Source: Bryobacterales bacterium
GTDB lineage: Bacteria; Acidobacteriota; Terriglobia; Bryobacterales; Bryobacteraceae
Length of the DNA stretch: 64,000 nucleotides
Direction of reading: 5' to 3'
Assembly (NCBI GenBank): GCA_947446025.1
Contig: CANFEY010000016.1
Location: forward strand, 1 to 64,000
The notes beneath the pieces were generated by a model that was given only the letters and a program-made list of their open reading frames with translations, was not told the origin of the DNA and searched no databases. Shown piece by piece: positions 44,979 through 47,864 of the stretch (within the stretch, counting starts at the first letter, position 1; every line of letters begins with the position of its first letter). A program made the translations under genes and the position numbers.

Positions 44979-45317
44979 ATGCAGACAGTTTCGATGGGAT
45001 TGATTCGCGTGCCCACTCCCGGGGTGCCGGTGCGGATTTGCAGCGACGAATCGTTGAATGTGGTGATGATGGTCATTCGCACGGTGCCGGGGTTTACGGG
45101 AAAGACGTATGTGGGGATCATGGGGATGGACCGGTTGACGGTCAACAGGACCGGCGTGGTGCGGATCTTCAGCGAGCCGCCGGCGTTTGGTCCGCAGGAT
45201 GGGGAAGTGTTTCCGCCGTATCCGAGCGGGCAGTCGAATGTGATTCGTCCGGCGGATTTTTGGGTGGATGCGGATGTGGCGGACGAGGGGGTTACGGTGA
45301 CGTGTTACGTGGCGTGA
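44979..45317 (+). CDS. Small protein, last of the cassette
   Basis: 112 residues, GGAGGG site 4 nt before the ATG. No signal peptide. MQTVSMGLIRVPTPGVPVRI resembles a beta-rich start like that of the first cassette gene (about the same size). Its end overlaps the convergent GH97 gene by 26 bp. Confidence 0.6.
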   Translation: MQTVSMGLIRVPTPGVPVRICSDESLNVVMMVIRTVPGFTGKTYVGIMGMDRLTVNRTGVVRIFSEPPAFGPQDGEVFPPYPSGQSNVIRPADFWVDADVADEGVTVTCYVA

Positions 45318-47160
45318 AGCGGATGGCTGCGCCACCTCCCGACGCCAGGTTCAGGCGTAGGGCTTGGGTGGAGCGGACGGTGCGGGTTTCGCGAGGGCTG
45401 TCGGAGTAGATTTCGGCGGTGTATTCGCCGGGGCCTAGGAAGTCCAGGGGGACGTTGATTTCGCGGGCGGTCCAGTTGGTGATGGCTCCGAGGAACCATT
45501 CGTTGTTGCGGGCGCGGGCGATGGCCACGTATTCGCCTACTTCGCCGGCGAGCGCGCGGGTCTGGTCCCAGGATGCGGGCACGGCCCTGATGAAGTCCAA
45601 ATCCTTCTGGCCTTGGTAGGCGGCGGGCGGGTCGGCCAGGGTCTGGAGGCCGCTTTCGAAGACGACCATCAGGGCGAGCTGGTGGGCTCGGGTGCCGAGC
45701 GAGGTGCCGGGCTGGAACTGCTCGCGGGTGGCATTGCGGAACGCGCCGGGGGCGTAATCCATGGGTCCGGTCAGCATGCGGGTGAAGGCGAGCATCACGT
45801 TGTGTTGGGGGGTCACGCGGGCACCTTGCTTGGCGTATTCCGAACCCATGACGGCTTCGACGGAGATGACGTTGGGGTAGGTGCGCTGCATGCCGTCGGG
45901 TTTGTAGGCTCCGTGGAAGTCGAGCATCAGGCGGTGTGCGGCGGCTTTGGCAGCGGCTTGGTGATAGAACGCAACCATGGAGGCGTCGTCGCGATTCATG
46001 CCATCGATCTTCACGCCGCGCAGACCCCATTTTTCAAACTGCGCGAAGGCGTCATCCATTTGCGATTCCACAGCGCGCCAATTCGCGGTGAGCCAGAGGT
46101 CTACGTTCCTTTGCCTGGCGTAGGCGAGGAGACCGGGAAGGTCAAATTCGGGCTTCAATAGGTCGCCCTGCGACTCGTCGAGCACCACGTATTCCAGCGA
46201 GGAGGCTGCCGCGAAATCGATGGCGCTCTTGGCCGCAGCCGCGGGAGCGTTGACAGCCTTGCCGGGGCGAATCCACGAAGTGTCAGTAAGCTTGGTAGGG
46301 CGATTCAAGCTCGTGACGATGTTGGACTCGATCAACTTCAGCGGCGAATCCGCGATCAGCAGCACCCGCCACGGTGAGACGAATGGAGTGGGCATGTTCA
46401 GCGCCATCCCGGACCCATCCACTAGCGGAGCCAGACGGGCACGCATCATCTTACCTTCGGCGTGCTCCAGGTAGAGGCCCGCGTACTCATCGAGGTCGGC
46501 TTCGGTGACGGCGACCCAGCCCACCCCGGGCTGCTCGACCAGAAACGGCAGACCGACTAGAGATTCGGGGTGAATTCCGCTCAGTGTCACCTTGCTGAAC
46601 TGTTCTTCGTAGCCGGTCTGGAAGCCGCGCAGCAGCAGCGGGTAGGCTTCGCTGTCTTTGGCGAAGGCGAACTCAGTAATCTCGTTGGGCGAAACGAAAC
46701 TCAGCAGCGGCGAGGTGGCGGCGATCACGTAGCGGAAGGCCACGCCGTCGTTGAATGCGCGCACTTCCATGGTCAGGCGCCGGCCCAGCGACCCGTTTTG
46801 CAGATACTCGGCAACCACTTCGTTGTAGTGGTTGCGAACCAGCTTGCTCTTGCCCGAAGGCAGCGAGTACGTTTCATCCACGGTCTCGCGCGAAGTGGTC
46901 ATCAGCCCGAGCTTGTGTCCAAGCGGCAGCGCGTTGTCGATGTCGTAGCCAAGATGCGAGGCTTCGATGAGCGGCTTGCTGTTGAAGTCCACGCTGTAGA
47001 CCAGGTGCGGGTGGGGCAGGCCTTTGTCCCACGGCTCACCGTCGAACATGCGGAATTCGATGCGTCCGTCGGGGGAGTTGACGGTGACGACGTCTTCAGC
47101 CGCCCAAGCGGGTGCGGCCAAAAACAAAACGAGCGCGGCCTGGTAGAACGTACGGAACAT
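45292..47160 (-). CDS. Glycoside hydrolase family 97
   Basis: 622 residues, signal peptide (MFRTFYQAALVLFLAAPAWA). GH97 layout: an N-terminal beta-sandwich (about 25-290), a TIM barrel with LTANWRAVESQMDDAFAQFE, GVKIDGMNRDDASMVAFYHQ, LMLDFHGAYKPDGMQRTYPN and SVEAVMGSEYAKQG, and a C-terminal beta domain. The Asp in GVKIDGM and the Glu in SVEAVMG are the likely catalytic sites, matching an alpha-galactosidase or alpha-glucosidase-like member. The ribosome site and ATG lie in the loop of a large hairpin (47125-47195). Confidence 0.88.
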   Translation of the reverse strand: MFRTFYQAALVLFLAAPAWAAEDVVTVNSPDGRIEFRMFDGEPWDKGLPHPHLVYSVDFNSKPLIEASHLGYDIDNALPLGHKLGLMTTSRETVDETYSLPSGKSKLVRNHYNEVVAEYLQNGSLGRRLTMEVRAFNDGVAFRYVIAATSPLLSFVSPNEITEFAFAKDSEAYPLLLRGFQTGYEEQFSKVTLSGIHPESLVGLPFLVEQPGVGWVAVTEADLDEYAGLYLEHAEGKMMRARLAPLVDGSGMALNMPTPFVSPWRVLLIADSPLKLIESNIVTSLNRPTKLTDTSWIRPGKAVNAPAAAAKSAIDFAAASSLEYVVLDESQGDLLKPEFDLPGLLAYARQRNVDLWLTANWRAVESQMDDAFAQFEKWGLRGVKIDGMNRDDASMVAFYHQAAAKAAAHRLMLDFHGAYKPDGMQRTYPNVISVEAVMGSEYAKQGARVTPQHNVMLAFTRMLTGPMDYAPGAFRNATREQFQPGTSLGTRAHQLALMVVFESGLQTLADPPAAYQGQKDLDFIRAVPASWDQTRALAGEVGEYVAIARARNNEWFLGAITNWTAREINVPLDFLGPGEYTAEIYSDSPRETRTVRSTQALRLNLASGGGAAIRFTPRNTSP

Positions 47161-47195
47161 CTCCGTTCCTATTCTACCGGACCGCGCTCGTTTTG
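47125..47195 (-). terminator. Large hairpin between csp and the GH97 gene, terminator- or attenuator-like
   Basis: On the minus strand: CAAAACGAGCGCGG pairs with CCGCGCTCGTTTTG (14 bp), then U-G and C-G pairs, GGTAGAA with TTCTACC (7 bp), and GGAAC with GTTCC (5 bp). The closing loop is GGAGAT: the GH97 Shine-Dalgarno GGAG and the AT of its ATG. The stem is followed by TTTTT, the signal of an intrinsic terminator, inside the signal-peptide codons. Confidence 0.7.
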
Positions 47196-47209
47196 AAATT
47201 CGTCAGTTC

Positions 47210-47413
47210 TTAGAGGAGAGTGACCTGCTCAGCTTGCAGGCCCTTGGGTCCCTTTTTCACAACGAAGGACACCTTGGCACCTTCTTCGAGGGTGCGGTAG
47301 CCGCCCGCTTCAATCGCGGAGTAGTGCACAAACACATCTTCGCCGTTTTCGCGCGCCAGGAATCCGAATCCCTTCGCAGCATTGAACCACTTTACGGTCC
47401 CGTTTTCTTTCAT
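47210..47413 (-). CDS. Cold-shock-domain protein (CspA type)
   Basis: 67 residues, one cold-shock domain with RNP1 KGFGFL and RNP2 DVFVHY. RNA chaperone. Lies upstream of GH97 on the same strand, 49 bp away, with the hairpin of 47125-47195 in between; a T-rich leader and GAAGAA-type site precede the ATG. Confidence 0.95.
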
Positions 47414-47603
47414 ATCTATAATTCTTCTTTCTAGCTTTGGTTCCGGAAATCGTTGAGGCGGGTGTAAGCGGGTAGGCTCTAACTGCGGGGTTCAAGCGAT
47501 GTTACTGGACTCCTGTTGCTACTTGGACAGTATCACGGTTGGAAGGGCGGGCGCAATGGGGTTGTTACCGGTTCCGTTGGGTGAGCCAGAGCCGCAGGGA
47601 TTC

Positions 47604-47864
47604 TTACGTCTCCCCAGACCGCTTGCCCTCGAGCAGGCTCGCCACCCGAATGTCTTCGTCCAGGTGCGGCCAATGGATACCTTCGCCGCCGCCGATGAAC
47701 CGCCAGTGGCTGCGTTCCTCGGCCGTCCCATGCGCGAGGCGGGGGAACCAGGTTATCGGTACACTCACGGAGCGGCCATCTGCCAGGTCCACTGTTAGCG
47801 TGTCCTCGCGAACAACAACGGCCCGCGCAGTCGCGTCCTGTAAGCTAGCTACCAAAGTACTCAT
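47604..47864 (-). CDS. DUF2442 protein
   Basis: 86 residues: DTLTVDLADGRSVSVPITWF is the DUF2442 core. DUF2442 and DUF4160 genes usually come as a pair and are thought to be a toxin-antitoxin-like unit. Its ATG overlaps the end of the DUF4160 frame by 20 bp. The partner is broken. Confidence 0.8.
   Translation of the reverse strand: MSTLVASLQDATARAVVVREDTLTVDLADGRSVSVPITWFPRLAHGTAEERSHWRFIGGGEGIHWPHLDEDIRVASLLEGKRSGET

Follow-up and report, generated by a model that had tools for sequence, protein, structure and literature searches.

A putative csp terminator overlapping the start and signal-peptide codons of a GH97 gene in a Bryobacterales bacterium

If a strong terminator-like hairpin lies directly over the start of a gene, by which route could that gene be transcribed? 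This question is raised by a locus of the analysed window (the whole stretch of DNA, 64,000 nucleotides), where a cold-shock gene (csp) is followed after 49 nt by a gene of glycoside hydrolase family 97 (GH97). A previous sequence-only reading had described the hairpin between them, and its strand is corrected here: csp, GH97 and the working direction all belong to the minus strand, on which csp comes first.

The hairpin between csp and GH97

The elements of the locus are as follows.

47210 to 47413, minus strand: csp, the upstream gene, a cold-shock protein of 67 aa (open reading frame; Pfam CSD PF00313, 93.5 bits).
45292 to 47160, minus strand: the GH97 gene, 622 aa (open reading frame; Pfam GH97_N, Glyco_hydro_97 and GH97_C).
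47125 to 47195, minus strand: terminator-like hairpin, 5' arm at about 47171-47195 and 3' arm at about 47125-47148 (folds).
47159 to 47164, minus strand: hairpin loop GGAGAT, which includes the A and the T of the GH97 ATG (fold).
47120 to 47124, minus strand: T-tract abutting the stem, inside the GH97 signal-peptide codons (sequence).

The ATG at 47160 is the sole start codon between the preceding in-frame stop and the start of the protein match, and the first GH97 codons, judged by eye to encode a signal peptide, form the 3' arm of the hairpin. The relatives of GH97 are poorly alignable across this region, as is usual for signal peptides.

The hairpin of 71 nt opens on the minus strand with CAAAACGAGCGCGG, closes with CCGCGCTCGTTTTG and is followed by TTTTT. 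Its long imperfect stem and its loop were found as previously described, our scan having given 29 pairs where 28 bp had been counted, and the TTTTT was likewise located in the signal-peptide codons. Together with the stem end the T-tract reads TTTTGTTTTT, where GTTTTT is common to the genome of the window (G000) and to two other species of the genus (G014 and G007); the codons that supply the U-tract are Val-Leu-Phe-Leu in G000 and G014, and Val-Ser-Phe-Leu in G007. The segment 47110-47215, folded as the plus strand, reached -49.7 kcal/mol vs a shuffle mean of -27.1 (sd 3.3, z -6.9), and none of the 200 shuffles folded equally well. Across the three species the stem energies range from -43 to -48 kcal/mol.

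In order to examine the letters of the stem, GH97 codons 2-17 were recoded synonymously while the protein and the 5' arm were kept fixed (2000 recodings per species). The real stability was matched by 1, 0 and 2 of the 2000 recodings in G000, G014 and G007, respectively, and after shuffling of the 5' arm 0, 1 and 1 of 2000 were as stable, the three species being related and the tests in them not independent. The stem is more stable than the encoded protein demands; had the element arisen by an inverted duplication, the same result would be expected. In the alignment of the three sequences 91.4% of the cells pair and 2 pairs have changed on both sides, while with three sequences only the covariation score was reached by 63 of 500 shuffles and the RNAalifold covariation term was slightly unfavourable (+0.67). 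When the partners were slid the pairing fell to 30-46%, as for any real stem. The conservation of synonymous sites is only slightly raised in the hairpin codons: identical codons for the same residue were counted in 5/9, 6/8 and 6/8 cases within GH97 codons 2-15, and in 225/400, 160/342 and 176/368 cases in the rest of the gene.

A candidate csp terminator and its distribution

Two features expected of an intrinsic terminator were found behind csp, namely a stable G+C-rich stem-loop soon after the stop codon and a U-tract immediately 3' of the stem. For comparison, a rule of hairpin plus T-tract was applied together with a crude gene caller to samples of three genomes: 455 kb of G000, made up of the window plus 20 fetched stretches and amounting to roughly a tenth of its 4.43 Mb; 472 kb of G014; and 400 kb of G030. 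It returned 18, 20 and 10 sites after stop codons, respectively, a list which serves as a yardstick and not as annotation, some of its entries probably not being real terminators. In stability the csp-GH97 hairpin ranked first both among the 18 sites of the G000 sample (-47.0 kcal/mol) and among the 20 of the G014 sample (-42.8 kcal/mol). It begins 14 nt past the csp stop in G000 and 6 nt past it in G014, and many of the other sites begin 14-25 nt past the stop. A simple consensus terminator scan reported 5 terminator-like sites, the csp-GH97 hairpin not among them; by our reading of its rule, the scan cannot pass the internal mismatches of a long stem. The best reading of the hairpin at 47125-47195 is that it would act as the terminator of csp, and the earlier proposal that transcription through csp meets a terminator-like hairpin overlapping the GH97 start holds at the level of the sequence, the stem being kept. 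It should be added that ribosomes can weaken a terminator close behind a translated gene, as described in PMC4824070.

Starts overlapping such hairpins were also seen elsewhere. The stricter scan gave four further after-stop sites with a mechanically called start before the end of the hairpin (L108, L164, L165 and L168), of which L164 was rejected as a start-in-terminator case, its loop ATG being out of frame with the downstream gene; in the looser scan 10 sites besides csp-GH97 overlap such a start. At L106, what looks like a genuine terminator touches a predicted start with its final bases. In G014 the GH97 start was left unmarked by the crude gene caller, and its position inside the hairpin was taken from the alignment of the locus and the comparison of GH97 loci.

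The arrangement itself is narrowly distributed. Relatives of csp were sought in 37 genomes, 32 of which had matches. The DNA from csp through the hairpin into GH97 found a match in 18 of the 23 genomes of the genus, and the match extends beyond csp only in G000, G014 and G007, which are also the only ones among the 23 to show GH97 directly behind csp; the stem is present in all three. Conservation in relatives had been set as a check on the hairpin, and the stem is indeed present in both other species of the genus that carry the csp-GH97 pair, although their GH97 proteins are only 58-70% identical to that of the window. An RNA model built from the three sequences gave these loci its three highest scores in the genus, at 104, 92 and 82 bits, and no other independent place exceeded 31 bits. 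At E <= 0.05 it matched in 28 of the 200 family genomes drawn, with a best score of 35 bits outside G000 and G014; G007 has no entry in the output of this search.

Ten of the family matches of the model were viewed (L123-L132). Five of them (L125, L126, L129, L130 and L131) trail the end of a mechanical ORF by 12-20 nt, which is a terminator-like spacing; L127 and L132 stand 30 and 51 nt after ORF ends, and L128 lies within ORFs. At L125 (G172) a terminator-like hairpin occupies positions 1501-1561, 20 nt past a mechanical ORF, and the next ORF (MAENLTLILFLPLLGG...) begins a few nt beyond its T-rich tail, which makes it a near neighbour of the csp-GH97 arrangement. At L126 a mechanical ORF of 220 aa opens in the hairpin, with a longer ORF on the opposite strand. 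L123 (G108) and L124 (G110) are hairpins with long stems, about 25 bp, that lack a T-tract. Their genomes have 7 and 3 weak model matches, respectively, and these hairpins perhaps represent a palindromic repeat specific to the family.

GH97 relatives at E <= 1e-100 were found in 58 of 237 family genomes. Thirty GH97 loci were compared (29 within the family, 1 within the order; 319-1500 nt of upstream flank), leaving aside L182 and L192, where the match begins inside the protein, the partial matches L019-L038 and the matches without fetched loci. A cold-shock gene stands upstream of GH97 in 3 of the 30 (G000, G014 and G007). These are also the three loci at which a fold of -43 kcal/mol or better ends over the GH97 start, folds in this comparison being counted whether single hairpins or not. 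Of the remaining 27 loci, L016 shows a hairpin that is strong (-41.3 kcal/mol) and ends about 59 nt short of the start of the match. Over the GH97 start region itself, L186 has a weaker fold (-30.5), and the folds of L173 and L017 are weak (-21.3 and -19.4).

A -10-like element within the 5' arm

The two arms of the upper stem have not varied alike. The upper 5' arm, CCGGTAGAAT, is invariant in G000, G014 and G007 (0 of 10 letters vary) vs 5 of 10 varying letters in its 3' partner (Fisher P 0.03), while in the lower stem the arms vary to a similar extent (4 and 3 of 14 letters). The 5' arm contains the following motif.

47171 to 47176, minus strand: TAGAAT, at -16 relative to the ATG and within the 5' arm, proposed as the GH97 -10 element (motif enrichment).

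TAGAAT stands at -16, -22 and -14 from the GH97 start in G000, G014 and G007. It is among the most enriched hexamers before genes in G000, with 10 occurrences vs 1.1 expected in 213 upstream regions, GH97 included. With GH97 set aside, TAnAAT was found at -22 to -10 of starts 11 times vs 0.46 expected in G000, 13 vs 0.50 in G014 and 6 vs 0.58 in G030, an excess of about 25-fold in the first two, and 24 genes of the G000 sample have it at -9 to -29. This enrichment is as expected for the -10 element of nearly leaderless genes, from which the transcript starts at the usual distance downstream. Genes led by such a signal have been described as TA-led and probably leaderless (PMC3160421); the distance given there is about 10-12 bp before the start. 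The GH97 gene likewise has a -10-like element, about 10-22 nt before its start, and it differs from them in that its signal lies within the terminator hairpin of the preceding gene and its transcript start is a predicted one.

The consensus scan reported no sigma-70 promoter at the GH97 start, and agreement with a -35 element is poor (of the 6 letters, 4 match in G000, 2 in G014 and 3 in G007). However weak, this is usual for the TAnAAT-led group, because the 53 such regions of G000 and G014 (GH97 included) also match no better than shuffled sequence (2.64 vs 2.70 of 6). These observations suggest that GH97 may have its own promoter within the 5' arm, in which case it may be of no consequence whether a read-through transcript exposes the start. 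The presumed own transcripts of GH97 fold as well (-39.3, -23.5 and -38.3 kcal/mol per 120 nt in G000, G014 and G007), so the GH97 start need not be free there. Another hexamer, GTATAC, occurs before genes 15 times vs 1.2 expected in G000, 5 vs 1.3 in G014 and 3 vs 1.0 in G030, and is perhaps another promoter or operator motif.

The explanation that we favour, and regard as probable though far from certain, is that an intrinsic terminator of csp is fused with the start of GH97 and carries an embedded -10 element, so that it would shield GH97 and yet spare its own transcript. A polymerase coming from csp would transcribe the full stem and stop at the U-tract in the signal-peptide codons. On the same DNA, the -10 element TAGAAT would sit in the 5' arm of this terminator, and RNA directed by it would have its 5' end in the loop, some 1-10 nt ahead of the ATG. 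Such a GH97 mRNA would be nearly leaderless and would contain the 3' arm only, hence the terminator could not form: the GH97 RNA would escape termination because the 5' arm is missing from a transcript that starts in the loop. Thus GH97 would be shielded from csp transcription while its own transcript is spared, and this escape through the embedded -10 would explain why three species tolerate so strong a terminator across a gene start. Termination itself, a working promoter, the point of the RNA start and shielding as the benefit are what we infer from the letters of the locus. More tentatively, and with somewhat less than even confidence, the element might be understood as a terminator that exempts itself, having the -10 in its own 5' arm and having had its 3' arm and U-tract recruited as secretion-signal codons; hydrophobic, U-rich signal-peptide codons would be naturally suited as terminator tails.

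Known counterparts and competing explanations

The closest counterpart known to us from the literature consulted is in E. coli, where the terminator of the frd operon is the attenuator of ampC (Grundstrom and Jaurin 1982, cited in PMC6045580). There, as proposed here, two transcription units of the same strand overlap, and the control region of the second gene contains the terminator of the first unit. According to PMC6045580 ampC is transcribed from a promoter within the last frd gene, so that the terminator lies between the promoter and the coding sequence of ampC and is met by the ampC RNA. At GH97, in contrast, the 3' arm is coding sequence and the proposed -10 lies inside the 5' arm, so that RNA started from it would miss the terminator; GH97 may have other promoters as well. 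A similar likeness exists to the nlpD1 terminator/penA attenuator, where an intergenic terminator of the upstream gene limits downstream expression; this is however a co-transcribed pair with an attenuator, and no start codon inside the hairpin is evident in that account (PMC6045580). By analogy the csp-GH97 element is classed as a compact variant of the frd-ampC-type overlap of a terminator with the next gene, and not as a new kind. In our literature search, whose coverage was incomplete, nothing was recognised that describes such an arrangement of terminator, promoter and start, glycoside hydrolase family 97 and cold shock protein never appeared together, and no work combined all the promoter and terminator-hairpin terms sought.

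The frd-ampC case also speaks for attenuation, in which GH97 would depend on csp transcripts that read through, termination would be reduced by Csp protein or by cold, and GH97 would thereby track Csp level or temperature. The order csp-GH97 is kept in three species, and E. coli CspA, CspC, CspE and CspD are reported to reduce intrinsic termination (PMC4347634, PMC9765468); as in that Csp-dependent antitermination, a csp gene here adjoins a putative intrinsic terminator, and on this analogy action of the local Csp on the local terminator is a candidate. Nevertheless, we consider attenuation unlikely: the stem is highly stable, no match in 46900-47700 reached the Rfam gathering level, the -10-like element before GH97 makes read-through unnecessary, and csp is not upstream of GH97 at the other 27 loci compared. 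The csp-linked or temperature-linked control of GH97 put forward in the sequence-only reading found no support on account of this stability, the sub-threshold Rfam result and the -10-like motif of GH97 itself. Rather unlikely too is a passive overlap, where the csp terminator would cover the GH97 start by mere proximity of the genes, TAGAAT would be nothing but stem, and GH97 would depend on leaky read-through or be hardly transcribed. It is consistent with the weak -35 match and with there being three related sequences, and the stem alone could account for a part of the conservation of the 5' arm; against it stand the invariant 5' arm of the upper stem, half of whose partner letters have changed, and the frequency of TAnAAT before starts in G000 and G014, about 25 times the expectation.

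Control at the level of translation, with the hairpin hiding or presenting the GH97 start in a csp-GH97 transcript (as an RNA thermometer or a similar switch), is very unlikely in our judgement. What recommends it is the AUG, which all three species place on or close to the tip of the hairpin (folds of G000, G014 and G007), and a nearby match to the cspA thermoregulator (RF01766; 47179-47517, minus strand, E 2.6e-07), which at 35.1 of 78 bits missed the gathering score of the family. That match lies mainly over csp and its leader, and the coding similarity of csp alone may underlie it; the Rfam search of 46900-47700 gave 4 matches at E <= 10, none of which reached its gathering score. The start codon had been placed in the loop of the window's hairpin, which is correct for the A and the U of the AUG, but its G is paired. 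Shine-Dalgarno letters ascribed to the loop are present, but AGGA lies in or beside the closing stem GGAAC/GUUCC, and GGAG abuts the AUG (spacing by eye). By eye no loop Shine-Dalgarno sequence is kept in G014 or G007, the tip stem is poorly kept (75% of cells paired), and a switch of this kind would have no need of the T-tract. In our judgement the predicted stem is very stable for a simple thermometer, which is unlikely at such energies.

Least probable, and highly improbable, is a functionless hairpin, either a mobile palindromic repeat or a recent inverted duplication. Several long, weakly model-matching hairpins do occur in some family genomes (7 in G108 and 3 in G110), and a stem that beats synonymous recodings would likewise be produced by an inverted duplication. 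As a dispersed repeat the element was rejected, since in its own genome the hairpin matches only itself and its own reverse complement (E below 0.8), a second copy being absent; furthermore, it is kept in three species in spite of the divergence of their GH97 proteins.

If the favoured explanation, a csp terminator fused with the GH97 start and carrying an embedded -10, is true, about 76 nt would combine four functions, those of the csp terminator and of the promoter, the start and the secretion-signal codons of GH97. A simple rule would follow for how a gene can be spared by the terminator that overlaps it. Annotation which separates terminators from coding starts would miss such elements, and the starts of signal-peptide genes would be a good search ground for further cases.
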